Positions 8,104-22,703 of a stretch of 23,537 bases of DNA are shown here, piece after piece (position 1 is the stretch's first letter; every line of letters begins with the position of its first letter). Origin of the DNA: a virus; IMG/VR virus record IMGVR_UViG_3300029267_001875, positions 1 to 23,537 of that record. The stretch is one strand, 5' to 3'. Under the pieces are notes generated by a model that was not told the origin of the DNA, searched no databases, and saw only the letters and a list, made by a program, of their open reading frames with translations. Made by a program: the position numbers and the translations under genes.

Positions 8104-9180
8104 ATGGCGCGTCGTTGCTGCTGTGTCGAGGGTTGCATAATCCTCCAGGACGATTTCGACCGGGATAACAGCACGGATCTTGGCAGCCAGTGGACCGAGG
8201 TATCCGGCGATTGGGAAATTGATACTGACCAGCTTGTCGAAGCGGGAACAACTAACGCCCGGATTGTCACCACGGCGAAGAACACATCCGGCCGTGGTTA
8301 TGTCGATGTAAAAATCTATCCCAACAGCGGCGACAAGTTTCGGATTCTGCTCAACTCCGACTCGACGGCTACAGCGTACCAATATGTCGAGGCTCACTGC
8401 ACGACGGCGAGTCTGATTCTCACGGCCGGCGGAGAGACTCGCACCTACACGGCCGCCGATGGATGGAACATCAATGAGTTGCCGATCATGATGAGCGGGT
8501 GCGTGACGGATGGCTGCCTGTACGTCCAGGTGAGTCATCTGGGGTTCGATGGCTGCGTGTGGGATAACACGGTTACGGTGAGCGACAGCCGCCGTCATGC
8601 GGGGTTGATGAATGGCGGTTCCTCTGAATTGACGTGGGACGATTTCATCTATCGTCAACACGAGCAGGATGATCCGGATTGTCCGGACTGCACTTGTTTT
8701 TGTACCTATTATGATGACGAAGGTCATCCGCAGCGATACTACCCGCACTGGAAACTCAAGATCGATTGGTATTCGGAGTTCTGTCTCTACGACGGGACGT
8801 GTGCCGACTTGGAGTACGATTGCAGCGAGGCAGTTTGGTTTGGGGTAAGTGGCTTTATTGGGACGACTCCGGTGCCCCAGGGTTCCGGCCCGGGCACGAC
8901 GCCGAAAGTAGTGTGTGGTGAAGATGACCGTTGTAGTTGGACATTGACCCTGCCGGGGGGCGAGTGTTGTGACGGCAACAACGCGGCCTCGGGGTGTCCA
9001 ACCGGGCCGGACGGCTGCTCGGACATAGGGGCCGAGGCATTTGTTTGTGGTAATTCCAGTACCTTCGCTGTTCGCTGGGATATAGAGACAATCGGCGACT
9101 TGTCGTGCCCACCGAACTGTGGGGTCGACCCAATGGACTCGGGGGGGTGGTACGGAATTATGACGGAGGGGTCGTGTTGA
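8104..9180 (+). CDS. Cys-rich LamG/concanavalin-like tail protein (receptor-binding candidate)
   Basis: 358 residues with about 25 cysteines. It begins MARRCCCVEGC. Residues ~14-185 have the plan of a LamG/concanavalin-like domain: DDFDRDNSTDLGSQWTEVSG, DWEIDTDQLVEAG, and a closing GGSSELTWDDFIYR. This opening is one I associate with planctomycete surface and sugar-binding proteins. The second half carries dense Cys groups (DPDCPDCTCFC, GGECCDG, SCPPNCGV) without the regular spacing of a single zinc finger, so disulphides or several metal sites are possible. Start ATG 8104 follows AGGAGGGA at 8093-8100. It could be the host-binding tip of the tail. A run of seven G near 9141 is a possible sequencing weak spot, but the frame reads sensibly through it. 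Confidence 0.55.
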   Translation: MARRCCCVEGCIILQDDFDRDNSTDLGSQWTEVSGDWEIDTDQLVEAGTTNARIVTTAKNTSGRGYVDVKIYPNSGDKFRILLNSDSTATAYQYVEAHCTTASLILTAGGETRTYTAADGWNINELPIMMSGCVTDGCLYVQVSHLGFDGCVWDNTVTVSDSRRHAGLMNGGSSELTWDDFIYRQHEQDDPDCPDCTCFCTYYDDEGHPQRYYPHWKLKIDWYSEFCLYDGTCADLEYDCSEAVWFGVSGFIGTTPVPQGSGPGTTPKVVCGEDDRCSWTLTLPGGECCDGNNAASGCPTGPDGCSDIGAEAFVCGNSSTFAVRWDIETIGDLSCPPNCGVDPMDSGGWYGIMTEGSC

Positions 9181-9539
9181 TGGCAACAGGCTGTGAGTGC
9201 ACCGAGCCCGGCTGGTGTGAACGCCACGGCGTGGAGAAGAACGCCAACTGGTTCCATCAGTGTCAGACGCGACAGGTGATTTTCAATTTGTGGGAACGGG
9301 GTTTGGGGCCAGGGCAGGAGATTGTAGCAACTGCGGGTGAAGCACCGGTGAAAGACGGTTCTGCGAGCAAGGCGCTCGTGACCCCCTGTGAACGGAGGCG
9401 TCAGAGGAGGGCGGAAAGGAAAGAATATTTCGATGCGAACGCTGAGTTTATTGCGTCATTATGCGAGGGCTGTGATTTCGCTGGTTGCCAAGACACGCCA
9501 TGCCGACGCCAAGGTCATTGCCCTCGCCACCTCTGGTAA
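9180..9539 (+). CDS. Small Cys/His-rich putative metal-binding phage protein
   Basis: 119 residues from ATG 9180, whose A is the last base of the previous TGA; GGAGGGG lies at 9164-9170. Upstream in-frame starts fall inside the previous gene and are rejected. The N-terminus has CECTEPGWCERHGVEKN followed by FHQCQ, and the C-terminus has LCEGCDFAGCQDTPCRRQGH; these two Cys/His clusters are separated by an Arg-rich middle (CERRRQRRAERKEYF). Two small zinc-binding knuckles are likely. The function is unknown. Its place after the Cys-rich tail protein suggests a partner or assembly factor. Confidence 0.6.
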   Translation: MATGCECTEPGWCERHGVEKNANWFHQCQTRQVIFNLWERGLGPGQEIVATAGEAPVKDGSASKALVTPCERRRQRRAERKEYFDANAEFIASLCEGCDFAGCQDTPCRRQGHCPRHLW

Positions 9540-9561
9540 CAATGCAGAGCGGAGATAAGCC

Positions 9562-10758
9562 ATGCCTATTGTTGTCGAACACCAGCCAGCCGGGGTCGCC
9601 GTGGGATTGGCGGCGTATGCGAGTGGCGTTGGAAACGCCCGGGAGCGGTGGCGTAAGCAAATGCTCGACCGTCTCGCGGAACAACAGGCCCAGGAACGGG
9701 AGATGGACTTTCGTCGCGAGATGCAGGAGGATCGCTTCGAGTTCGAGGGCATGTTGGCGGGAGAGCGAATGGCGTCCGATGAAGGGCTCCAGGAGGCAAT
9801 GTTCAGGGAACGCCGGGAGGAAAGCGACCTGGACGCACGGCGACGAAGGGCGGACTGGCGTCGTCGCGAGGCCGGGTCGATCACGGAGGACAGTCTTCTC
9901 AGCGACCGGAACAAGGAGCGTGAAAGGCAGATTCTGGACGAGATACAGGAGATCGACGGCGATCGGTACGAGACTCCCGAAGACAAGCAGGCTGCTATCG
10001 AAGCGCTCCAGGAAGAGCGCCGCCGTCTTCACGAGGAGAGTCCGCGAAAGCCCACCTTGGAAGAGGAAATTGCCGAGAGAACTAAGAACTACCCGGACTG
10101 GATGAAGGACCTCCCGTGGAACCTGAAGGACGGCGTCCTCAGCTTGCCCAGCAACATGCCGGACTCGCCCGAGGAACTTCAGCGCGAGCGAGACGAGAAG
10201 CAACGCCAGGCCCAGTACGATGAGGATATCTTTCAGTGGGAGGCGGCCGAGAAACAGTGGGAGGATGCCCGGGACAAACGTCGGCGATACGAGGACTGGT
10301 TGTGGACGCTTCCGAAAAACGAGGGCGCGAGCTTCGACGAAATCGATGCCCAGGTCGAGGAGAGGTATGGGCCGCTCGGGGACAGACCTAGACCCCCGCG
10401 TCGGACGTCGATGGGGCCGGGGGCGTGGAGTGTGACGCGGGGTGCCGCGGTCGCTATGGCGGAGGGGTTTGGAGGGTTTGGGCCGACGAGGCCACAGGAA
10501 GGCCCCGAGGGCGCGCCTCCAGTGGAGCCTGAGCAGGTAGAGCCTGAGCAGCAGGACGTGAATGAAGTCGTTCCGCTCAGCGCCGAGGAGCTACGGAACC
10601 GTTTCAGGGAGACGAATAATGCATATAGAAGACCTGTGACGAGCAGTGTCACGGGCACGTCCCAGCAAGCTGCACCACTAACCCGGGCGGAGTATGAGGC
10701 TTTGCCGTCCGGTGCAATCTTTGTTGACCCGAACGGAGTACGGAGGAGAAAGCCATGA
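9562..10758 (+). CDS. Charged helical internal virion protein candidate
   Basis: 398 residues; ATG 9562 follows a GGAGATA element at 9551. After a short hydrophobic start (VAVGLAAYASGVGNA) the residues from ~25 to 255 are a highly charged helix (ERWRKQMLDRLAEQQAQERE and many Glu/Arg pairs), likely coiled coil. A Pro/Glu-rich linker follows at ~290-335. The C-terminus has LTRAEYEALPSGAIF followed by DPNG and a basic tail, an ending I recall from phage proteins encoded next to ejection proteins. It lies immediately before the giant polyvalent protein, whose ATG overlaps its stop region, so the two are probably co-packaged in the head and ejected together. No enzyme motif is seen. Confidence 0.6.
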   Translation: MPIVVEHQPAGVAVGLAAYASGVGNARERWRKQMLDRLAEQQAQEREMDFRREMQEDRFEFEGMLAGERMASDEGLQEAMFRERREESDLDARRRRADWRRREAGSITEDSLLSDRNKERERQILDEIQEIDGDRYETPEDKQAAIEALQEERRRLHEESPRKPTLEEEIAERTKNYPDWMKDLPWNLKDGVLSLPSNMPDSPEELQRERDEKQRQAQYDEDIFQWEAAEKQWEDARDKRRRYEDWLWTLPKNEGASFDEIDAQVEERYGPLGDRPRPPRRTSMGPGAWSVTRGAAVAMAEGFGGFGPTRPQEGPEGAPPVEPEQVEPEQQDVNEVVPLSAEELRNRFRETNNAYRRPVTSSVTGTSQQAAPLTRAEYEALPSGAIFVDPNGVRRRKP

Positions 10759-13700
10759 GCCGGGTGCAAGACGAGTGGTGGCTGGAGGCTCCAGTAGTCG
10801 AGAATGTCGCTGACGAGTGGTGGCTGGAGGCTCCTGTTGTTGGTGATATGGTCGAGCAGCCGAAGCAGCCTCCCCCACCCCGGTCATTCATCCAACGCGG
10901 CATGGACCACATGCGCGATACGGCCGTGGTGACCGCCAAGGGAGCACTCGGCGTGCCCCAGGCGATCACGGGCATTGCTGACATGATACCGATTACCGAA
11001 GCGATCCCAGGGCCTCCGGGCTTGAAGAGTGTCGCCAAAGCGGCTGCAACGCAAGCCGGGCTGCCCGTCCATGGCTGGCCTGGATGGATGCAGGAGAGGC
11101 TAGGAATCGACTACGAGGGGGCGCAGCAAGTTCTTCACAATGCGTACAGCGCCGAGACACAGGCGGCCCATCGGAACGTGGCTGATGCGGAGGGGGTGCT
11201 AGGTAAGATCGACGCGGCGCTACGAAACCCACGCGCGATTGCCACGACGATTGGCGAATCCATCCCGCTTATGGCCGCCGGTGGTGCTATCGGTCGTGCG
11301 CCCGCGCTGGGAAAATACGGCTATGCCATTGGGGAAGGGCTGGTGTCGGCTGGCTCTGGGGCGGAGCAAACCCGAGCCGAAACACCGGGCGGACTCTTGA
11401 GCGGAAAGCAAGCAGCCATACACGCCGCGAGCGGAGGTCTGACGGGGGTGGTGGGCGTCTTGGGTAGTAAGCTGGCTTCCAGGCTGGGGATTGAAGACAT
11501 CGATGTCTTGATGGCCGGTGGCGCCAGTGATCCGGCGAAGCGCAACATCCTAATCAAGACGTTGGCGGGAATGCTGGTCGAAGGTGGGGCCGAGGAGGGG
11601 CCCCAGTCCATTCAGGAACAGATCGCGCAGAACTTAGCCACGGGCAAGCCATGGTATACGGGCTGGGATCAGGCTTGGGTGATGGGGACGATAACGGGCG
11701 GTGTAATGGGTGGTGGGACAAACCTGATGACCAGCTTGGCCGATCTCCCCCACACTCCCACTCGCAGGGAATGGGCCAAGGCGGTGTTCGGCGACATTTC
11801 CAGGTACAGGGAGGCCCCGAGTAGAAAGGTACGACGAGAACAGTTCAAAGCCGCGAAACAGGAGGCAGCAAGCCGTGTACGAGTTGACGCCCCAGCAGCA
11901 AGCCGAACTGGAATGGATCGAGGAGTTGTCCCGGCGGCAAACGAGGGAAATGTTCCTGCACGCCCTCCGGTCACGCCAACTGAAGAGGCTGGCCAACCAT
12001 CGGGCGAAGAACGTGGTGCTGAACCGGCGGATGCTGGAGTCGAACCCGAGGGACGGACGGGAGTAGCTGAAAGGACACGGGTAGAGAAACAGGTCAAGGG
12101 CGTCTTTGGGGAGGAGGAGGGGGCTGCCGGCATGGCCCTCATGGACGCCCACGCAGGCGTTTGGGCGAAGGCCACGGGACGGTCGGCGGATGAGTGGTTC
12201 AGTAGGGTTGCCGCAGTCGAGAAAGGCCAAGAGGACGATGTGTCGGAGACGGCGCTTCTACACTCCGCTTTCCACGGCAGCCCGCACAAGTTCGACAAGT
12301 TCACGCTGGATAATATCGGGACCGGCGAAGGAGCCCAGGCGTATGGTTGGGGGCTGTACTTTGCGGACAGTGAGTCGGTAGCGCGGTTCTATCGCGATAA
12401 GCTTGGGGGCGGATGGCTGCTGGACGGGAAGCCGATTGCGGAGATGGCGCTAGACAGGGACACCCTGTCGGAACTCAACAGGGCTAGGGCGTTTGTTGGC
12501 AAAGACGAGACGATTGATGATGCGATCAAGCGTGTACGCCAGGAACGCAAGGAACGCCAGAAGGCGGAACGCAGCGGGGAGGAGGGGCCCAGTGGGTGGA
12601 CTGAAGATCTACTGGCGGCCGAAAAGGCGATGAAGAAGTATCGGTCGCGGCTGACCCGCAGCAAGGGTAGTCTCTATAAAGTCGATCTTGCCCCTTCCCA
12701 GGAGGAGTACCTGCTATGGGACAAGCCGCTGAGTGAGCAGAGCGAGAAGGTCAAAAAAGCGCTGCGCGAAGTGTTTCCTGATGGTTCCGGAATAGACAAG
12801 GCTTTTCTTGCCAAGCAGCCTGAGGCGAGTAGAAAGTGGTGGGAGGCTCAAAAGACTTATCTCGAGGGCGTGTGGGGACAGACTGGAGAACAGTTTTACA
12901 CAGGCCAAATAAACAAGTTCTACGAGACAGTTGAGACGGAGGTAAACGCGAAGTCTGCCGCAGAGTGGGCATCCAAGTCGCTTCACAAAGCCGGCATCCG
13001 CGGCATTAAGTATGCCGACCAGGACAGCCGATTCGCTCCCCCAGGGCAAATGCGTTATCGGGTTCGATGGAGCGAGGACGGCACGAAGCCGGAAGTCTTC
13101 GAGGTGGCGACGGGCCAGGCACTCGACAGGCAGTTTGCCACATTCGCGGAAGCTGACGAGTGGATCGCCAGCCAGGAGCAGGAGTCGGACCGCACCCACA
13201 ACTACGTCATTTTCGACGACGCTGATATAGCGATTGAAGAGGTCTTGGAGTCTCGCCGGCGAGGCAGGGTCACGGGTGCCGTGCAGTTTGCCGAAGATGG
13301 CCGAGCAACGATCGTCGCCTTCCAGCGTGGGGACGTAGCTACCCTGGTGCATGAGGTAGGGCACATCTTTCGGCGGTCCATCGGTGAAGTAGACGCGGAC
13401 CTGCTATCGCGGGCCGAGAGGGACCTGGGAGTCACTGACGGCAACTGGACTGTTGAGGCTGAAGAGGCGTTCGCCGGTGGGTTCGAGCGGTATCTGCGTG
13501 ATGGAAGGGCGCCGACCGCGACATTGACGAAAGTGTTCGAGCAATTGCGGGATTGGTTGCTGGCTATCTATTCAGCCATCAGGGGGACGGCTCTTGAGCG
13601 AAACGTGTCGCCGGAGTTGCGTGGCGTGTTCGACCGAATGCTGGGCGGGAAAGCGGCCCCAGCGTCCCCTCAGACGCCTCCGCCGCTCCCTGGGGTGCCG

Positions 13701-16700
13701 GGCGGCCCTGGAACGGTCTCGACCCAGAACGCCTACACGCAGGCCCAGAGGGCCGTTCACGGGATGAACCCCAAGGCCCCCGTGGTCACCCGCGAGTGGG
13801 TCAAGCTTCACGGCCAGGCCATGGCTATGTCCGACGCGGAGGTGACGAAGGTCGTTGACGAGTTGCGGAATGACCCGAAGTCAAGCAGCGACCAGCGAGA
13901 ATTTGTGCTCCTGCGACGGATGAACGAAATTGAGAATCAACACGCCAGTGCCGTTTCGAGCGGTGACATGCCAGCAGCAGCAGCAGCGGAAGCGCAGTTG
14001 GTGGACATCTACACGATAGCCGAAAAGGTCGGCTCCGAGGAAGGCCGGGCTCTCAACGCTCGCAAAGCTTGGATAAGGGACGACAATTCCCTCTTGGGGT
14101 CGATTCGACGGGCCACGAAGAAGAACGGGCGTCCACTCACGGAGATCGAGCGTCAACAGTTGGTTGAGCGCAGGCAGGAACTGGACGCCCTGGAAGCGGC
14201 ACTCGCGGAGAGGGAGCGTCAACAGGTTGAGGCTGCTGCCGAGCGGACGGTGTCCGAGGCGGTGGCCAAGCGGCAGGAGACGCTCAAGAGCCGGTACGAG
14301 AAAGTGGTTAACGCCATTCTCGACGCCTATGGGATCACGGGTGTCACTTTCGCTAACGTTGAGGCGGAGGCCAAGCGACGGGTGAGTGAGGAGGCTGAGG
14401 CGGCCAAGGCGTACAACTATGCTTACCGACAGGCTGCCAAGGCCACGGGCTTGTGGCCCAAGGTAATCGACAAGATTGAGGACGGTCAGCTTGTGGCCCC
14501 TAGTGGACGGCCGTATGACATCAACGAATATGGTCGCCTGGACGAAAAGGCTCCCATGCTGGCAAGGGAGTACCCGGAACTTGGGATTCAATCCACGCCA
14601 GCCGATGCGGAGCAGACGGGCAACGAGGCGGCTGACCTCGTGAAGGTGCTCAAGCGGGGAATCCGCCACGTTCCCGGGTGGCATGAAAAGCTGGACGAGG
14701 TTGCTCACGCGCTGGTGGCCGAGCGGGGCCGGGAGTTGCCCCTGGGTTTCAGCCTGGAACGGGAGGTGACGCAGGCGGACAGGGACTTCGAGGGCAGGGG
14801 TCTCGATGAATCTGAATCCAGCACCGTCGACGATGCCGGCTTCGACTGGGGGACGGGCACACAAATGCCTCCAAGGGGTGGCAAGCCTAAGCCACTCACG
14901 GCGAAGGAGAAGGCCGAGCGGGCCGGGCAACGGCTCAAGGAAGCGTCAGCGGAGCTCCTAGACTCCTTGGTCGCCCTGGGACCGTTGAAATTTGCCGAAC
15001 CGGCGGACACGGTTCGCAGGTACGATCGTTTCCAGGCAGCGCTGGCTGACGCGGCTCTTGCCTGTATCGAGTACGGCATTCGCAGCTTCAACGCGGCAGT
15101 GGTACGGCTTACGGCTGACATGGGGCGGCGCATGACGCCGATGGTCCGCGAAGCTTTTCGTAAGGAATGGGACGCCCTTGTCGGTGAGGGGGTGATTCCG
15201 TCGCCCGTAATCGACCCGAACGACGACAGCGAATTCAGTGAGCACGCCCAGAAGGTACTCAGTTGGGTCGTTCAGTCTGGAGTGACGGACACGCAGCAGG
15301 CTCTTGACGAGGTCCATGCGGAGCTACAGACCATTCGGCCTAACATCACCCGCGAGGAGTCGGGGAAGGCGGCGTCTGGCTACGGGCAATTCAAGCCACT
15401 AAACAAGGATGCGGTGTCTCTGACAAGGCGTCGAATCAGGGGCGAGCTTCAACAGCATTCCAAGATAGACGACCTGGAGAGGGCCATTGCGGAAGCTCAG
15501 CGACTCAGGGCCGAGGGAAAGTCAGAGGCCGAGATAGCGGAGGCAATCAAGGAGTTCTTGCCGAAGAAGACCGGTGTCGAACGACGCACACCAGAACAGG
15601 CCGAGCGGGAACTGATCTCGCAGGTCGAGGACCTGAAGAAGGAGATTCCCGTTTCGACGGAGGGGACCGAACGGCAACTCAAGACCCGCCTGGCGACCGC
15701 CAAGACGGCCGTGCTGAACCAGATCGAGAACCTGGAAGCCGGTAGGCCGGGGAGAAAGCCGCGAACGCCTGGACCAACTGATGCCGAGCTTGAGGCTCAC
15801 CGGAAGCGGCGGGACAAGCTACAGGCGGCCTACGACGAGATGAACCCGCGGGACCGGAAGAAACGCACGCCGGAGCAGGAAACCAAGGCTACGTTGCGGG
15901 GTCTGGACCGGGCAATCGAGGATCTGGAGGGGGACTTGGGGCGGGGCTACGTCGGTCGCCCGGGCAAGCCGGTGTCGCGAACCAGCCCGGAAATCGACGC
16001 CAAGCGGAAGAAACTGGCGCGATTGAAAGAACTGCGCGAGGAGATACGCGAACTGGACCCCGAATTTCAGAAGGACGAGTATGCCCGGCGTCTGGCGGCC
16101 CGGAAGCAGATGCTGAAGCGGAAGCTGGCGGCCTACGAGGACCGGTGGGCGCGCAAGGATTTCGCGAAGAAGCCCGTGAGGAGGTCTCCGGAGGATGAGG
16201 AGACGTTGAGGCTCCGGCATCAGATCTCGGAAGCCAACAAGCGCCAGCGCGCGGCGGAGGACCGAATTGCAAGGGCCAACCGGCTGATGCGAGAGAAGAT
16301 TGCCGTGGTGCCGCTTGACGTGTCCCGCACCATAAAGAGTGTCTGGTCATCTGTCGATGCGTCATTCCTTTTGCGGCAAGGGGTCTTGGTCGCGGCGGGG
16401 CATCCAATCAGGGCCGTGCAGCAGCAGGGGCGAAGTCTCCGCGCGGCTCTGTCCGACAAGGAGTTCTTCGCCTTGCAAGAGGGGATTGCGGCTCGGGACA
16501 ACGCGAGGTCGGGGCTCTACGGCCGGGCAAAGCTTGAGCTACTTGATATCTCCGGCCCCTTAGTTTCTCGCTCGGAAGAGTACCAGTCCACGTTCGTCCA
16601 AAAGATTCCCTATATCGGGGGGGCCATTAAGGCTTCCGAGCGCGCCTTCGTGGCCCAGGGCAATCAGATGCGGGCGGACTTGTTCGATTCCATGATTGCG

Positions 16701-17516
16701 ACGATGGCGATGGACCCGGGGAACGTAAGCGATGCCGAGGCGAAGGCGATTGCCAATTACGTAAACATAGCAACCTGGCGGGGGAATGTGGCTGGGTTTG
16801 AGCAAACGGCTGCGCAACTGGGTGCCGTGATATGGACTCCTCGCGGGGTGGTCTCACGCTTCCAGTACCTTTTTGCTCAACCGCTCTTGTGGCCGGCGTT
16901 CAGGGGCCGACTGTCCGGGCGGGCGGCGAAGGTCATTGCATGGGAGTACGGCAGGACCTTAGCGGGAATGAGCATCTTCTACGGCACGTCGGCTGCGATG
17001 CTTCTCGCGGCCTTTGGGACCCCAGGGGACAACGAGGAGCGGGACAAGTGGAATATCACGTTCAACCCGTACAGTCCGGACTTCGGAAAGGTGCGGATTG
17101 GACGCACGCGGATCGATCCGATGGGTGGTCTGTCGCAGGTAACGAGACTGACTACGCGGGAGTCCACCAACGCCGTCAACGCCCTCTATCAGCTTTTCGG
17201 AGGGAGGCCAAGCAAACAAGCGAAGGCGGACATGAAGGACACTTTGTCGATCGCTGGAAGGTTTCTTCATCAGAAGTTCGCACCGGCGGCATCGATGGTC
17301 ACGGAGATTATGACCAGTGAGGACTATGACCGCGAGCAGGTCACCTTGGGGGGGGTAGCCGCCAAGGCCGTGCGTCCAATCATTTTTGAGGACGTCTACA
17401 CGAGCATCAAAGAGCATGGGGTCCCTGAAGGTATGGCATTGACGGTCCTGGCCATATTCGGGATGGGGCTCACCTACCACGAGCCTGAGCGGCCACCCCC
17501 CCAGAAGTGGCGATAG
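10755..17516 (+). CDS. Giant polyvalent internal/ejection protein: ART-like, zincin and C-terminal LPD domains
   Basis: 2253 residues. The N-terminus has a tandem 14-residue repeat with DEWWLEAPVV twice. Residues ~40-345 match a conserved phage region with Gly-rich, membrane-active helices (IPLMAAGGAIG, TGVVGVLG, TITGGVMGGGTNLM). A disordered linker (~370-440) covers a nested ORF. Residues ~500-830 are ADP-ribosyltransferase-like, as found in polyvalent proteins (HGSPHKFDKF at H507, AYGWGLYFAD, then GIRGIKYAD and NYVIFDDADI). Residues ~850-960 are a zincin, HEVGH at 866-870 with a likely third ligand in EEAFAGGFERY (E904 or E911). Long coiled coils fill ~1100-1840. Residues ~1850-2250 match the large polyvalent-associated C-terminal domain (FGKVRIGRTRIDPMGG), with one hydrophobic segment near 2070. 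Known polyvalent proteins travel with the DNA and protect it or modify host targets; that role is inferred here. Confidence 0.8.
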   Translation: MSRVQDEWWLEAPVVENVADEWWLEAPVVGDMVEQPKQPPPPRSFIQRGMDHMRDTAVVTAKGALGVPQAITGIADMIPITEAIPGPPGLKSVAKAAATQAGLPVHGWPGWMQERLGIDYEGAQQVLHNAYSAETQAAHRNVADAEGVLGKIDAALRNPRAIATTIGESIPLMAAGGAIGRAPALGKYGYAIGEGLVSAGSGAEQTRAETPGGLLSGKQAAIHAASGGLTGVVGVLGSKLASRLGIEDIDVLMAGGASDPAKRNILIKTLAGMLVEGGAEEGPQSIQEQIAQNLATGKPWYTGWDQAWVMGTITGGVMGGGTNLMTSLADLPHTPTRREWAKAVFGDISRYREAPSRKVRREQFKAAKQEAASRVRVDAPAASRTGMDRGVVPAANEGNVPARPPVTPTEEAGQPSGEERGAEPADAGVEPEGRTGVAERTRVEKQVKGVFGEEEGAAGMALMDAHAGVWAKATGRSADEWFSRVAAVEKGQEDDVSETALLHSAFHGSPHKFDKFTLDNIGTGEGAQAYGWGLYFADSESVARFYRDKLGGGWLLDGKPIAEMALDRDTLSELNRARAFVGKDETIDDAIKRVRQERKERQKAERSGEEGPSGWTEDLLAAEKAMKKYRSRLTRSKGSLYKVDLAPSQEEYLLWDKPLSEQSEKVKKALREVFPDGSGIDKAFLAKQPEASRKWWEAQKTYLEGVWGQTGEQFYTGQINKFYETVETEVNAKSAAEWASKSLHKAGIRGIKYADQDSRFAPPGQMRYRVRWSEDGTKPEVFEVATGQALDRQFATFAEADEWIASQEQESDRTHNYVIFDDADIAIEEVLESRRRGRVTGAVQFAEDGRATIVAFQRGDVATLVHEVGHIFRRSIGEVDADLLSRAERDLGVTDGNWTVEAEEAFAGGFERYLRDGRAPTATLTKVFEQLRDWLLAIYSAIRGTALERNVSPELRGVFDRMLGGKAAPASPQTPPPLPGVPGGPGTVSTQNAYTQAQRAVHGMNPKAPVVTREWVKLHGQAMAMSDAEVTKVVDELRNDPKSSSDQREFVLLRRMNEIENQHASAVSSGDMPAAAAAEAQLVDIYTIAEKVGSEEGRALNARKAWIRDDNSLLGSIRRATKKNGRPLTEIERQQLVERRQELDALEAALAERERQQVEAAAERTVSEAVAKRQETLKSRYEKVVNAILDAYGITGVTFANVEAEAKRRVSEEAEAAKAYNYAYRQAAKATGLWPKVIDKIEDGQLVAPSGRPYDINEYGRLDEKAPMLAREYPELGIQSTPADAEQTGNEAADLVKVLKRGIRHVPGWHEKLDEVAHALVAERGRELPLGFSLEREVTQADRDFEGRGLDESESSTVDDAGFDWGTGTQMPPRGGKPKPLTAKEKAERAGQRLKEASAELLDSLVALGPLKFAEPADTVRRYDRFQAALADAALACIEYGIRSFNAAVVRLTADMGRRMTPMVREAFRKEWDALVGEGVIPSPVIDPNDDSEFSEHAQKVLSWVVQSGVTDTQQALDEVHAELQTIRPNITREESGKAASGYGQFKPLNKDAVSLTRRRIRGELQQHSKIDDLERAIAEAQRLRAEGKSEAEIAEAIKEFLPKKTGVERRTPEQAERELISQVEDLKKEIPVSTEGTERQLKTRLATAKTAVLNQIENLEAGRPGRKPRTPGPTDAELEAHRKRRDKLQAAYDEMNPRDRKKRTPEQETKATLRGLDRAIEDLEGDLGRGYVGRPGKPVSRTSPEIDAKRKKLARLKELREEIRELDPEFQKDEYARRLAARKQMLKRKLAAYEDRWARKDFAKKPVRRSPEDEETLRLRHQISEANKRQRAAEDRIARANRLMREKIAVVPLDVSRTIKSVWSSVDASFLLRQGVLVAAGHPIRAVQQQGRSLRAALSDKEFFALQEGIAARDNARSGLYGRAKLELLDISGPLVSRSEEYQSTFVQKIPYIGGAIKASERAFVAQGNQMRADLFDSMIATMAMDPGNVSDAEAKAIANYVNIATWRGNVAGFEQTAAQLGAVIWTPRGVVSRFQYLFAQPLLWPAFRGRLSGRAAKVIAWEYGRTLAGMSIFYGTSAAMLLAAFGTPGDNEERDKWNITFNPYSPDFGKVRIGRTRIDPMGGLSQVTRLTTRESTNAVNALYQLFGGRPSKQAKADMKDTLSIAGRFLHQKFAPAASMVTEIMTSEDYDREQVTLGGVAAKAVRPIIFEDVYTSIKEHGVPEGMALTVLAIFGMGLTYHEPERPPPQKWR
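10770..10834 (+). repeat. Tandem 42-nt repeat encoding DEWWLEAPVV twice
   Basis: A 23-base identical segment occurs at 10770-10792 and 10812-10834, 42 nt apart, so the protein begins with two copies of a 14-residue unit carrying DEWWLEAPVV. The core bases are identical while the flanks differ, which suggests a recent or selected duplication. Trp-rich acidic repeats at the front of an injected protein could be a packaging or scaffold-docking tag. Confidence 0.85.
11875..12066 (+). CDS. Nested 63-codon ORF in +1 frame inside the polyvalent gene
   Basis: GTG 11875 is preceded by a perfect AGGAGG at 11860-11865 with a nine-base spacer. The product begins VYELTPQQQAELEWIEELS and continues as a basic amphipathic helix (RSRQLKRLANHRAKN), stopping at TAG 12064-12066. 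By hand count about 54 of 63 codons end in G or C, against about 24 of 63 in the overlapping main frame, which there encodes only a low-complexity Ala/Pro/Glu linker. The ORF fits exactly between the membrane-active region and the ART region of the large protein. No family is recognised. It may be a real overlapping gene, or an older separate gene bridged when its neighbours fused. Confidence 0.5.
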   Translation: MYELTPQQQAELEWIEELSRRQTREMFLHALRSRQLKRLANHRAKNVVLNRRMLESNPRDGRE

Positions 17517-18038: not shown

Positions 18039-18410
18039 ATGCTAGTTCTTTCGCGCCGACGCGGCGAGTGGGTGACTGTCGAGGGCCCCTGCCGCGTCGT
18101 TCTGGTTTCTCTAAACGGCGACACGGCACAACTCGGCTTCGAGGCCGAGCGTTCCGTGACGATTCTTCGCGAGGAGGTGCCTCGACGGCCAGAACCGCTA
18201 AGCGATAACGACTTCAAGTACCCCGAAATGGCGAGGGTCCTTCAGGCCGTGCCCATGATTCAGTGGCGGCGTTGCTGGAAGTGTAATCAGGTGGACCTCT
18301 ATCGTGACAACATGCTGCCGGCGTGCCGCTGTCATGCGTGCGGGTCGGCAGACACTCGTATTATGCGGGAGGAAAGCGCCCTGCTGCATGGGAGGAAGGA
18401 TTCAGAATGA
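18039..18410 (+). CDS. CsrA-like RNA-binding protein fused to a C-terminal zinc ribbon
   Basis: 123 residues; ATG 18039 follows AAGGAGGGAA. Residues 1-47 match CsrA: MLVLSRRRGEWV at the front and VTILREEV at 40-47, keeping L4, R6, R7, R44 and E45-E46, the positions that bind GGA RNA in E. coli CsrA. Ordinary CsrA stops near residue 60. Here residues ~50-75 form a linker and ~79-101 a zinc ribbon: C79-W-K-C82 and C96-R-C98-H-A-C101-G. CsrA represses translation by covering ribosome-binding sites; the ribbon could add RNA, ribosome or protein contacts. It opens the recombination operon, and its stop overlaps the exonuclease start by ATGA. The CsrA half is secure; the function of the fusion is unknown. 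Confidence 0.8.
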   Translation: MLVLSRRRGEWVTVEGPCRVVLVSLNGDTAQLGFEAERSVTILREEVPRRPEPLSDNDFKYPEMARVLQAVPMIQWRRCWKCNQVDLYRDNMLPACRCHACGSADTRIMREESALLHGRKDSE

Positions 18411-19405
18411 GCGATGATTCAGAACGGGCCGCATGGCTTGCTGAAAGGGCGACCGGCATAGGTGGCAGCGATGCCGCCGCCGTTTGCGGGATGTCGCCGT
18501 GGAGTACCCCGCTGGACGTGTATATGTCCAAGGTCGGGTATCTCGACCAGGTGGGCCAAGGGCGAGATGACGAGACGACCGACATGCGGCGGGGTACGTT
18601 GCTGGAACCGGTGGTCCTCCAGATGTACACAGATGAGACGGGGAGGGTGGTCCGGACCCCGGAAAAGACCTACGTCAATCCAGAGCATTCGTTCGTTCGC
18701 GCGAATCTGGACGGAATATGCCTCGCGAACACGGTGGGGATTGAGGCTAAGACGGCTCGGAGACGACAGGGGTGGGGCGAACCGTGGTCGGCTGAGGTTC
18801 CAATGGTCTATCTATTCCAGGTGCAGCATTACATGTTGGCGACGGGCTTGCAGGTGTTTCACCTGCCGGTGCTGTTCGGTGATTTCAAGTTTGAGATCTA
18901 CGAGGTCGAGGCGGACCGGGAGTTCCAGGAATTGCTCCTGGAGCATGAAGCCCGGTTCTGGGCGATGGTCGAGGCCCGCACGCCCCCGGAGCCAGTGAAC
19001 GATGCGGACGTATCGAAGCGCTGGCCGGTCAGTAAACCCGAGGGTCGCAAAGCAACTCAAGAGGACTTGGAGGTCGGCGGGCACTTGCTGGCCGTACGGG
19101 GCTATTTCAAGAACCTTGAGGCGGTGAAGAAATCTCTTGAGGCCGAGCTAAAGCGGTCCATGGAGGACGTCGAGGCGCTGGTCTGCGGCAATGAAACAAT
19201 CTGCACCTGGAAGACCGCCAAGGGAACGACTCGATTCGACGCCAAAAAGTTTCGGGCCGACCACCCGAAGCTGTACGAACAATACAGTTACGAGTCCGCC
19301 CCGAGTCGGACGTTTTTGTTCAAGGAGAAAGCCAAATGTCTGGAGATCATGCGACCGCTGCTACAGGAGAACCTGTTGCCGGGCAGGAAGTTGATCGGGC
19401 AGTAG
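18407..19405 (+). CDS. YqaJ/lambda-exo family phage exonuclease
   Basis: 332 residues from ATG 18407, overlapping the csrA-like stop as ATGA, with GGAGGAAGGA upstream; the open frame back to 18323 lies within that gene. Family motifs are clear: GIGGSDAAAVCGMSPWSTP (residues 17-35), RGTLLEP with E67, RANLDG with D102, the ExK pair E113-A-K115, and QVQHYMLATG (138-147). These form the PD-(D/E)XK nuclease core that degrades the 5' strand of double-stranded DNA ends. The C-terminal third (~220-332) is helical and charged. The gene for a probable annealing partner follows two genes later, so the pair likely forms a recombination system for genome end repair or concatemer formation. Confidence 0.88.
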   Translation: MSDDSERAAWLAERATGIGGSDAAAVCGMSPWSTPLDVYMSKVGYLDQVGQGRDDETTDMRRGTLLEPVVLQMYTDETGRVVRTPEKTYVNPEHSFVRANLDGICLANTVGIEAKTARRRQGWGEPWSAEVPMVYLFQVQHYMLATGLQVFHLPVLFGDFKFEIYEVEADREFQELLLEHEARFWAMVEARTPPEPVNDADVSKRWPVSKPEGRKATQEDLEVGGHLLAVRGYFKNLEAVKKSLEAELKRSMEDVEALVCGNETICTWKTAKGTTRFDAKKFRADHPKLYEQYSYESAPSRTFLFKEKAKCLEIMRPLLQENLLPGRKLIGQ

Positions 19406-19768: not shown

Positions 19769-21160
19769 ATGAGTAAAGACAAGCTATCTACGGAAATCGC
19801 TCCCCAGCAGGGCTCTGGCGGTTTCATGACGCAGGCCCGGGACATGGGCATACCGCCCTCCGTTTTGGCCGAGCAACAGCGGGCCAAGACCGAGATTGAG
19901 GCGGCCCTTACTGTTGCCGCGTCCATGCCGCGGGACGAGAAGCGAGCCATGGATGCTATCCTGGTCAGTTGCCAGAGGGAGGGTCTTGCTGCCAAGTCTC
20001 AGTACCAATACAGCCGTGGTGGGACGGACATATCCGGGGCGAGCATCGTTTTGATGGAAGCGATTGCCCAGCGGTGGGGCAATATCGATTTCGGCTTCCG
20101 CGAGTTGTCCCGGTATCCCGCGAGGGGCAAGGAGCCTGGCCAGTCGACGGTTGAAGCCTATGCGTGGGACCTGGAGAGCAACACACGGCGCAAGGTTCAG
20201 TTCACCGTCGAGCACGCGATGAAGGCAAAGGGACGGGTAAAATTGCTGACCGACCCTCGGGACATCTACGAATACGTGGCCAATCAGTCGCAACGGCGTG
20301 TGCGAACTTGCCTGGAGAACATCATCCCCCGGGATATCGTGGAGGCGGCATGTGAGCAGTGCAACGAGACGCTCAAGGCCGAGATCAAGGACGTGAAGGA
20401 ATCGACTCAGAAGATGCTCCAGGCGTTTGCTGATCTCGATGTCACGCAGGCGATGGTCGAGGCGCGGATTCAGCGGCATCTTGAAGCCATCACTTCGGCC
20501 CAGATTATCAGCCTTCGGAAAATCTACACTTCCATCAAGGACGGCATTTCCTCGGCTGAGGATTGGTTCGATATGAGTGAGGCGGAGGCGAAGCAGGAGA
20601 AGACGACGGTAGCTGACAAGGCCAAGGAGGCGATGCGGAAGAAGGCCGACGAGACTGCACCCAAACAGGCCAGAGATGAAACACCGTCGTCACCGCAAGC
20701 CGCGGAGCGGGAGCACATCAAGGTGGCCATAGAGCAGGCGTGCGACGAGATGGGTAAGGTGGAGACCATCGACGAGATCAAGGCGGTAGACTCGACTTTT
20801 GCCGCCCGCGAGGATGTGACCGACGCGGCCAAGCGGCTCGTACACGCCACCGCTGGGGCCAGAATCAAGGAGTTGGAGTTGTTTCCCTCTCCTCAAGAGG
20901 AGCCCACGTCCGAGGCAAAGACCGAGAAGCCAGAGCCCGAGAAGACATCCACGAAGCCCAAAGAGGAGCCCGACACCCCCGACTGCGCCGAGCAGGTGGC
21001 ACAGTGGCTCGTGGACCTCGAGGAAGTCGAGACGATTCGTGGTCTCAAGCAGGCTAGGGAGGGTATTCCGGCGGCGTGGCCGGAGGATGCGAAAGAGATG
21101 ATCCGGGCCAAGATCAACACGCGAATTGACAAGCTCCGGGGCACCAAGGACGGACAATAA
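19769..21160 (+). CDS. Phage recombination protein, probable ssDNA-annealing partner of the exonuclease
   Basis: 463 residues. Residues ~35-210 match a phage family I recall next to exonucleases: AMDAILVSCQREGLAAKSQY, RGGTDISGASIVLMEAIAQRWGN, DFGFRELSR, VEAYAWDLESNTRRKVQFTV, LLTDPRDIYEYVANQSQRR and LENIIPRDIVEAA. The order resembles annealing proteins of Erf/RecT-like modules, though it is not RecT itself. Residues ~225-250 are helical. From ~325 two diverged helical repeats appear, sharing (K/E)VETI-x2-(I/L)K, joined by a Pro/Glu/Lys/Thr linker (~395-420). Start ATG 19769 follows CGGAGA. Annealing is inferred from context and recalled similarity, not a visible catalytic motif. Confidence 0.7.
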   Translation: MSKDKLSTEIAPQQGSGGFMTQARDMGIPPSVLAEQQRAKTEIEAALTVAASMPRDEKRAMDAILVSCQREGLAAKSQYQYSRGGTDISGASIVLMEAIAQRWGNIDFGFRELSRYPARGKEPGQSTVEAYAWDLESNTRRKVQFTVEHAMKAKGRVKLLTDPRDIYEYVANQSQRRVRTCLENIIPRDIVEAACEQCNETLKAEIKDVKESTQKMLQAFADLDVTQAMVEARIQRHLEAITSAQIISLRKIYTSIKDGISSAEDWFDMSEAEAKQEKTTVADKAKEAMRKKADETAPKQARDETPSSPQAAEREHIKVAIEQACDEMGKVETIDEIKAVDSTFAAREDVTDAAKRLVHATAGARIKELELFPSPQEEPTSEAKTEKPEPEKTSTKPKEEPDTPDCAEQVAQWLVDLEEVETIRGLKQAREGIPAAWPEDAKEMIRAKINTRIDKLRGTKDGQ

Positions 21161-21178: not shown

Positions 21179-21310
21179 ATGAAAATAGAATGCCCCCAGT
21201 GCGGTAGCAAACGCACTTACGAGACGGAGGTGGACCGGTGCGAAGCGGACGATTATTATCTATGCGACGACTCACCGGCAGGCTATCCCACTGGGGAGGT
21301 GGAAACATGA
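21179..21310 (+). CDS. 43-residue zinc-ribbon protein
   Basis: ATG 21179 follows GAGGAGGG (21163-21170) with eight bases between, a strong ribosome-binding site. The product starts MKIECPQCGSKRTYETEVDR and has C5-x2-C8, C21 and C29, consistent with a single zinc-binding ribbon half or a zinc-ribbon with an atypical second pair. The rest is acidic and the stop overlaps the ASCH start as ATGA. Small single-domain zinc proteins are common in phages; a role as a nucleic-acid or protein adaptor is inferred. Confidence 0.65.
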   Translation: MKIECPQCGSKRTYETEVDRCEADDYYLCDDSPAGYPTGEVET

Positions 21311-21726
21311 GGGCACTGACGATCTCTCAACCATACGCCAGCCTCATTGCCGATGGCCTTAAGCCGGTAGAGAACCGGCGATGGCCGACGAAGTATCGCG
21401 GGCCGCTCGCGATCCATGCGGGGAAAGGGACGCAATACCTGGACGGTGCCGAATTGGCGCAGTACCCAACGGGGGCGGTGATTGCAACGTGTCAATTGAT
21501 CGCGTGCTTCAGCCGGGATGAGGCAATAGTCCTGGCCGATCAGAAGACGCTGTCCCGGGAACTCATGGACCTCGGGTGGGAATTGGGGCATATGCTCTGG
21601 CTGTTGGGCCACGAGCATTGCGAGGGGCCGTTGTGTTGGGTGCTGTCGGATGTGGCGAAGCTGCCAGAGCCGATTCCCGCAAGAGGCCGGCAAGGACTGT
21701 GGGAGTGTAGGGAGGTAGCTACGTGA
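21307..21726 (+). CDS. ASCH-domain protein
   Basis: 139 residues from ATG 21307, overlapping the small zinc protein by ATGA. The N-terminus is the ASCH/PUA-like signature: MRALTISQPYASLIADGLK, then PVENRRWPTKYRGPLAIHAG and K at the end of the strand. The middle holds VIATCQLIACFSRDEA and the end WVLSDVAKLPEPIPARGRQG, as in full-length family members. ASCH domains bind nucleic acids and some hydrolyse modified nucleosides. The gene lies directly before a C5-cytosine methyltransferase and overlaps it by GTGA, so a link to modified DNA or RNA is possible but unproven. Confidence 0.85.
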   Translation: MRALTISQPYASLIADGLKPVENRRWPTKYRGPLAIHAGKGTQYLDGAELAQYPTGAVIATCQLIACFSRDEAIVLADQKTLSRELMDLGWELGHMLWLLGHEHCEGPLCWVLSDVAKLPEPIPARGRQGLWECREVAT

Positions 21727-22703
21727 GCTATCACTATTACAACGACAACGATCTATTCATGGTTGAATGGCTCGTTACTTCAATCGCCACCGACGAACTC
21801 CAGCGGGGCATCGTCGACGGCCGCAGTATCACGGAGGTGCTTCCCGATGGGCTCAACGCATTTAGACAGTGCCACTTCTTCGCTGGAGTCGGTGGCTGGC
21901 CACTCGCCCTGCGATGGGCAGGATGGCCGGAAGATCATCCTGTCTGGACCGGGAGTTGTCCCTGCCCGCCATTCTCATCGGCGGCTGCTACGCTCTCCCT
22001 CGCAGTCAACGGAGAGCGACGATGCAAATGGTGCGGAGGCAGAGAGCCTGGATTTATCGACGGGCCGAATTCCGTCATCGAATGGTTCGGGTGCGTCGGG
22101 TGTGGATGGTACGATACTCGACACCTCTGGCCTGAATTCTTGCGACTCATCAAGGTATGCCGGCCGGCGGTTGTCTTTGGCGAGCAGGTTAGCAGTCCGC
22201 TTGGCCGCCAATGGAACGCCGGAGTATACGCTGATTTGGAAGCGATCGGCTATCGAGTCCCTTGTGACGAGCAGGGGAATTATGAACTTTACGACCTGCC
22301 GGCTGCGGGCGTCGGCGCGCCGCACATCCGACAGCGGTTATTCTGGGTGGGTGTCGCCCACGGCTCGCGATCACAGTCGAGGAGTCAGGCCGCCGCGGCC
22401 ACAAGACACGGGAGTACCGCTGAGCCAGCAGGTTGGCATGATTGTCGAATCGTCGCCTGCCGAGACCTCGACAAGCAAGGGCGAAACAAACTCCGCCGTG
22501 TCCCCAGCCCTGAATCCAGCGTTTTCCCGCTGGCTCATGGGCTACCCCGCAAGCTGGGACCGCCTCTCGCCGAGCTGGGACAAGTGGGACTTCGCGCAGC
22601 AAGAGCTAACCGAGTCGGCCGACTGCGGGGATACGGAAACGCGATAGTACCGACGTTGGCAGCAGAATTCATTCGATCGTATATGGAGGCACGTAAACGA
22701 TGA
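21723..22703 (+). CDS. C5-cytosine DNA methyltransferase with zinc-ribbon insertion
   Basis: 326 residues from GTG 21723, which overlaps the ASCH stop, with GGGAGGT upstream. Motif I is FFAGVGGWPLALRWAGW (52-68). Motif IV is GSCPCPPFS with the likely catalytic C81; position 82 is Pro rather than the usual Gln. Motif VI is VVFGEQV (E154), motif VIII HIRQRLFWVG (R203, R205), and the end is RVGRLRGYGNAIVP (297-310). It transfers a methyl group to cytosine C5 for host-defence evasion. Between motif IV and HLWPEF is an insertion with C101-K-W-C104 and C124-V-G-C127, a zinc-ribbon-like unit in the catalytic loop. The 3' part overlaps a +1-frame ORF. Confidence 0.87.
   Translation: MSYHYYNDNDLFMVEWLVTSIATDELQRGIVDGRSITEVLPDGLNAFRQCHFFAGVGGWPLALRWAGWPEDHPVWTGSCPCPPFSSAAATLSLAVNGERRCKWCGGREPGFIDGPNSVIEWFGCVGCGWYDTRHLWPEFLRLIKVCRPAVVFGEQVSSPLGRQWNAGVYADLEAIGYRVPCDEQGNYELYDLPAAGVGAPHIRQRLFWVGVAHGSRSQSRSQAAAATRHGSTAEPAGWHDCRIVACRDLDKQGRNKLRRVPSPESSVFPLAHGLPRKLGPPLAELGQVGLRAARANRVGRLRGYGNAIVPTLAAEFIRSYMEARKR
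21847..22647 (+). CDS. Overlapping +1-frame ORF inside the methyltransferase
   Basis: 266 residues from ATG 21847, which has GGAGG at 21833-21837 with a nine-base spacer. The frame is open from 21763. It contains SLASRLAVRLAANGTPEY, LIWKR, RASARRTSDSGYSGW, SPTARDH and NPAFSRWLMGYPASWD, stretches I recall from hypothetical phage proteins that are themselves the alternate frame of C5 methyltransferases. In the last part (22540-22645) about 31 of 36 codons end in G or C, against about 19 of 36 in the methyltransferase frame. The first half is Ser-rich and less convincing. Either this is a real overlapping gene or a conserved shadow forced by the methyltransferase motifs. Confidence 0.4.
   Translation: MGSTHLDSATSSLESVAGHSPCDGQDGRKIILSGPGVVPARHSHRRLLRSPSQSTESDDANGAEAESLDLSTGRIPSSNGSGASGVDGTILDTSGLNSCDSSRYAGRRLSLASRLAVRLAANGTPEYTLIWKRSAIESLVTSRGIMNFTTCRLRASARRTSDSGYSGWVSPTARDHSRGVRPPRPQDTGVPLSQQVGMIVESSPAETSTSKGETNSAVSPALNPAFSRWLMGYPASWDRLSPSWDKWDFAQQELTESADCGDTETR

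Follow-up and report, generated by a model that had tools for sequence, protein, structure and literature searches.

A very probable overprinted gene in an inter-domain linker of a giant polyvalent phage gene, and similar nested signals in its relatives

Results

The stretch of viral DNA analysed here (the window; 23,537 bases, positions 1 to 23,537 of virus record IMGVR_UViG_3300029267_001875) carries a giant polyvalent gene, and the nested ORF at 11875-12066 within it is very probably a real overprinted gene. The reading we favour, to which we give a probability of roughly 0.8, is that this is a small +1-frame gene expressed by internal initiation on the giant gene's mRNA, that the main frame reads the same DNA as a linker, and that the arrangement is one case of a class found in homologous giant genes.

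The giant gene and its linker

The host gene (10755-17516, plus strand, as are the features described within it) encodes 2253 aa and matches phrog_30335, phrog_11358 and phrog_9880. Residues ~50-308 (10902-11678) form a conserved N-terminal domain that, in tblastn searches and alignments A2/A3, is common to F116-like phages and many IMG/VR giant proteins at 32-37% identity; the best 80 loci with this domain were retained. On the 3' side of the linker lies an ADP-ribosyltransferase-like (ART-PolyVal) segment (12270-12413), in which HGSPH...GTGEGAQAYG is conserved according to tblastn and alignment A1, and the giant gene matches Pfam PF18760 (ART-PolyVal) with E 0.00043 and 21.5 bits, below the cut-off of 31.2. 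A further segment with an HEVGH motif (13272-13649) coincides with the phrog_9880 match at residues 840-965 and, judged by the motif, is presumably metalloprotease-like. The giant gene is followed by a RecE-like exonuclease gene (18323-19405) and a gene for a phrog_3657 protein (19769-21160), and farther 3' by genes for a phrog_3193 protein (21238-21726) and a DNA methyltransferase (21723-22703).

Over the nested ORF, the main frame (11874-12065) encodes an acidic stretch (pI 4.6) rich in A, P, G, E and R, with Gly, Pro and Ala making up 44% of residues. The initial annotation had likewise read this part of the giant protein as linker.

Signals and codon usage of the nested ORF

The nested ORF is complete in the +1 frame of the giant gene. 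As first proposed from the sequence, an AGGAGG Shine-Dalgarno (SD) motif (11860-11865) and a nine-base spacer precede a GTG start (11875-11877), which opens 63 codons ending at a TAG stop (12064-12066). The AGGAGG is strong but not unique within the window, as the gene at 8104 has one too. Openness of the nested frame is by itself unremarkable, because the same 63 codons were stop-free in 1541 of 5000 simulations (31%).

The codon usage of the nested frame is coding-like and exceeds what the host protein dictates. The +1 frame has a third-position GC content (GC3) of 0.859 over the ORF and the main frame one of 0.375, close to the earlier hand counts of ~86% and ~38%. The window contains 98 nested ORFs with a length of 50 aa or more, of which this one has the highest codon log-odds, synonymous-codon score and GC3. 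The relative synonymous codon usage (RSCU) of the +1 frame correlates with that of the remainder of the window at r = 0.65, that of the main frame at r = 0.00. The top +1 codon segment within the whole giant ORF is 11865-12083, which scores 17.86 nats (runner-up 4.89) and ends near the nested ORF's own start and stop. When the main protein was kept fixed and its codons were redrawn from the window's usage, a +1 score of 17.86 nats was reached in none of 2000 whole-ORF resamplings (simulated maximum 10.3) and a main-frame GC3 of 0.375 in none of 5000 (simulated minimum 0.516).

If there were no second gene, relaxed codon choice or the odd composition of the linker would have to mimic a coding +1 frame by accident. 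The main frame is indeed a low-complexity linker, and a stop-free +1 frame is common in the simulations. Nevertheless, codon choice under relaxation should have moved toward the genomic GC level rather than toward a GC3 of 0.375, the resamplings with identical amino acids never reproduced this value, and the GC3 windows that overlap the nested segment are the lowest among the 711 in the window. We therefore consider an accident of this kind very improbable.

A second gene is also dispensed with if a helical sequence was once read in frame in the giant protein and two opposite indels near 11865 and 12070 left a codon-usage fossil. Such a compensated frameshift would yield the same local codon pattern, but the signal stops close to a start with a strong SD motif and close to a stop codon. 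Evidence from related genes that bears on this alternative is given below.

The predicted nested product

The 63-residue product is basic (pI 10.7; 13 K+R, 9 D+E) and is predicted by AlphaFold2, run on the single sequence, to form a single helix over residues 6-56 (pLDDT 92). A lone predicted helix of this kind gives few clues to function. No homologue turned up in Pfam, PHROGs, NCBIfam, PADLOC or the PDB, nor in the viral contigs, genome contigs and giant-gene loci that were retrieved, and family and profile searches gave no nuclease or recombinase similarity. The initial annotation had looked to homologues in other phages for confirmation, and the phages and databases searched yielded none: the best tblastn matches in phages had E about 1 and were not accepted. 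A weak tblastn match in one giant-gene locus (L357; E 0.10-0.19) lies, by coordinate arithmetic, in frame with the giant gene there. Queries with pieces of the giant gene or with the product recovered only three distant loci as the closest relatives of the window phage in the collections searched.

Nested +1 signals in related giant genes

We scanned the interiors of giant ORFs for switches of codon frame at a threshold of 14 nats. The loci came from ART-like queries, from N-terminal-domain queries (best 80) and from annotated phages, and are thus a sample rather than a full census; a few of the scanned giant ORFs are antisense and probably spurious (e.g. the minus-strand ORF of L329). Among the loci listed, 341 giant ORFs contained 93 segments of at least 14 nats, 87 of them in the +1 frame and 6 in the +2 frame. 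With duplicates removed (322 giant ORFs), 85 +1 segments were found against a resampling mean of 0.35, and 6 +2 segments against 0.45 expected; at 20 nats or more the counts were 42 in +1 (0 expected) and 0 in +2 (0.05 expected). At least one segment was present in 61 of the 322 distinct ORFs, namely in 60 of 155 with a GC content of at least 0.58 and in 1 of 167 below it, the signal being GC-based and having almost no power under 58% GC. A control set of ORFs shorter than 900 codons was not clean because spurious ORFs enter it. In the 1.8 kb after the N-terminal domain, 28 of 68 giant genes, including that of the window, exceeded all 50 of their own resamplings.

Frame openness was considered as the cause of the bias toward +1 over +2 and rejected, the values for stop-free 80-codon blocks being 0.20 and 0.26 at GC of at least 0.64.

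These segments often carry gene-like boundaries. An in-frame ATG with a 5-6 base SD motif stands near the segment start in 25 of 70 cases, compared with 1% of the 1893 positions used as controls. The +1 stop lies within 30 nt of the segment end in 54 of 81 cases. Blastp groups the 84 nested proteins into families of 11, 9, 8, 7, 3 and 3 members and into pairs, with 25 singletons. The window's product is not a member of family A, described below, by phmmer similarity, and its best match among the 84, apart from itself, has E 0.38. In six examples inspected, the main frame over the nested gene is a linker rich in Gly, Ala, Arg, Pro, Asp and Glu that resembles the window's. Nested genes vary in presence between relatives, family A for instance occupying one site in L298 and being absent from it in L295. 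Four giant genes (L299, L132, L104 and L297) contain two or more separate +1 segments in different linkers.

Synonymous constraint

In 14 pairwise alignments of related giant genes, we compared synonymous identity over the nested segment with that of all other windows; we selected the pairs ourselves among strong-signal loci, and several pairs have a locus in common. The nested segment exceeded every other window in 9 of the 14 comparisons. In one pair (L340/L345), synonymous identity was 0.99 in the nested segment and 0.74 elsewhere, and the nested proteins were 0.97 identical compared with 0.82 for the main frame. Five comparisons failed to give zero windows as high as the nested segment: L001/L002, whose sequences are identical; the comparison with L295, which is without the family A gene at the site; L340/L345 at 9477-9639, a weak case with 70 of 279 windows as high; L307/L331 (10 of 268); and L299/L357 (2 of 236). 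By these alignments, synonymous change is suppressed over most of the nested segments tested, as measured in relatives of the window gene. Ongoing constraint of this kind would not be expected of a fossil left by a compensated frameshift.

Two conserved families of nested genes

The nested family with the consensus HW..P...LK..G.L..AL (family A) was followed in a dedicated scan of viral contigs. Forty of its 41 loci are nested in the +1 frame of ORFs longer than 1900 codons and none stands alone; the remaining one (L392) shares its reading frame with the upstream half of a giant gene. The first aligned codon is ATG in 32, GTG in 4 and another codon in 5 (hand count). In 62 pairs of equal length with nucleotide identities of 65-97%, nested-frame identity exceeded main-frame identity in all 62; the pairs are not independent, near-duplicates being among them. 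Mean differences at the three nested codon positions were 0.18, 0.15 and 0.30, and the main-frame wobble position is therefore the least variable.

By coordinate arithmetic, the family A match lies in the +1 frame within one giant CDS in phages SopranoGao, Atu_ph08, POI1126 and Mwe-JY07, whose annotations list no small CDS at the match. A second family (family B) is likewise placed in the +1 frame of a giant CDS in phage 8P, again at a position for which the annotation has no small CDS.

In nearly all of the 50 loci listed, the main frame continues past the 3' end of family A into the start of a DarB-like methylase or into a GPFGPIL-type domain (surveyed by motif and by eye; one contig ends first). 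At several of the loci L381-L409, a conserved main-frame domain (GPFGPILRGYEGKW...IDLVWG) starts 2-3 residues past the end of family A, so that the borders of the nested gene and of the domain coincide.

In Sinorhizobium phage PBC5 (L370/L392) the giant gene is split: orf33 enters family A in frame and terminates at the stop codon of the family A gene, and the downstream half of the giant gene stays in its usual frame. One indel, whether natural or introduced by sequencing, would account for this split.

The PBC5 locus, where the upstream half of the giant gene and family A share one frame, is what one would look for if the nested signals were remnants of compensated frameshifts. Set against it, no relative was found in which the window's +1 product is encoded in frame, and the nesting is stable across divergent phages, as the 40 family A loci illustrate. 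Together with the synonymous constraint, these observations make a compensated frameshift improbable as the source of the nested signal.

A predicted structure of family A (pLDDT 84.8) had no PDB match at E 0.001 or better and one good viral structure match, a 1093-residue fragment (Q8W6J4_2) that presumably belongs to PBC5. Three candidate assignments were rejected: matches of its profile to PDB entries for designed helical repeat proteins (E 2e-5 at best) were read as composition, the match to phrog_938 'endolysin' sits at the end of a 2185-position profile, and matches to TnpV were weak and below cut-off (E 0.013-0.049). Comparisons of the predicted structure thus yield no function.

Discussion

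Relation to known overlapping genes

In bacteriophage lambda, Rz1, the lipoprotein of a lysis pair, is nested wholly out of frame within Rz. The window ORF resembles Rz1 in its complete out-of-frame nesting in a phage gene; its 63-residue product has no lipoprotein-like similarity.

An out-of-frame HNH homing endonuclease gene of the type found in phage ShiLan lies within phage methylase genes in a manner resembling a homing insertion, according to the accessible portion of the report (PMC11855218). As described there, that case shares with ours a GTG start and a small out-of-frame gene enclosed by a larger phage gene whose own reading frame is uninterrupted (10755-17516 in the window). It differs in encoding an HNH protein and in having no detectable ribosome-binding site, whereas the window ORF has a strong SD motif and a product without nuclease similarity. 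Moreover, many unrelated families are found here in one kind of host gene.

With this published precedent (PMC11855218, in the portion available), the window ORF might be a mobile insertion, that is, a selfish small gene that keeps its host's frame open, an origin that would be compatible with a nested gene. The variable presence of nested genes between relatives, as in L298 and L295, fits such an origin. We nonetheless consider it quite improbable, as the product lacks nuclease or recombinase similarity, the SD motif is strong here whereas the ShiLan authors detect none in their case, and family A is not scattered at random but retains its position ahead of the same types of domain.

For the spacer of the hepatitis B virus polymerase, which overlaps the surface gene, it has been proposed, in the part of the article available (PMC8227390), that a short gene gained a second frame that served as a linker and joined its neighbours into a multidomain protein. 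The likeness is in the proposed origin, the second frame of a small gene becoming the linker of fused neighbours; the differences are that it concerns an unrelated animal virus and a single case rather than a recurrent class.

The window's host gene, with its ART-like domain, is of the same type as the polyvalent proteins of phages and conjugative elements (PMC5512222, as represented in the accessible text), and its relatives have DarB-like domains. A term search of that text returned no use of 'overlapping' and no nested genes.

Proposed expression and origin of the nested gene

Returning to the small +1 gene that we favour, we infer that the nested ORF is translated. Ribosomes would initiate internally at AGGAGG-N9-GTG on the giant gene's mRNA and produce a basic, helical 63-residue protein, and in the giant protein this DNA would correspond to a disordered linker that connects the N-terminal and ART-like domains. 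Codon usage, and probably the larger part of selection, would then belong to the nested frame, and the linker would for that reason look like the nested gene's shadow. Homologous giant genes would likewise have conserved families of small +1 genes concealed in the linkers between their domains. These sequence signals and codon statistics, together with the constrained and conserved +1 genes in homologous linkers, favour the nested-gene interpretation of the initial annotation.

Because the nested frame holds the codon usage, it may be the older or the dominant one. The order of birth is nonetheless only suggested, since an overprinted gene can, with age, also come to show typical codon usage, as the available text of PMC8227390 indicates. 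The initial annotation had further proposed that the giant protein arose by fusion of two genes across an intervening small gene. Such a fusion is plausible and fits the codon asymmetry, but no phage was found in which separate halves flank a homologue of the small gene. The accompanying suggestion that the in-frame ATG at 12132-12134 (Met460) is a relic start of the second gene is not supported: the AGGAGGAGG ahead of it amounts to three Glu codons, and main-frame similarity to the relative vir555 already begins at residue 429, ~31 residues upstream, this upstream part being weak.

The best guess at a function, although we would not bet on it, is that the nested product assists the giant protein as a partner or chaperone or else inhibits it, the shared message coupling their supply. 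A broader and somewhat more doubtful proposal is that giant polyvalent genes are composite in two frames, many of their disordered linkers being shadows of small +1 genes that were enclosed when neighbouring genes fused across them and whose products, made from the same message, serve as dedicated partners or immunity factors of the injected giant protein.

Implications

A class of small genes hidden in the linkers of giant polyvalent phage genes is apparently undescribed. No report of nested genes in such giant genes was found in the literature searched, as judged from titles and the beginnings of abstracts in a collection that lies largely outside subscription journals. Overlapping genes as such are well known; a set that recurs, is conserved and has escaped annotation within a single type of giant phage gene appears, from this literature, to be undescribed. 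If the interpretation is correct, Klebsiella phage SopranoGao, Agrobacterium phage Atu_ph08, Ochrobactrum phage POI1126, Pseudomonas phage 8P and Microcystis phage Mwe-JY07 would each carry members of additional gene families. It would also account for the look of the linkers in polyvalent proteins, and would offer a test case in which gene fusion meets overprinting.
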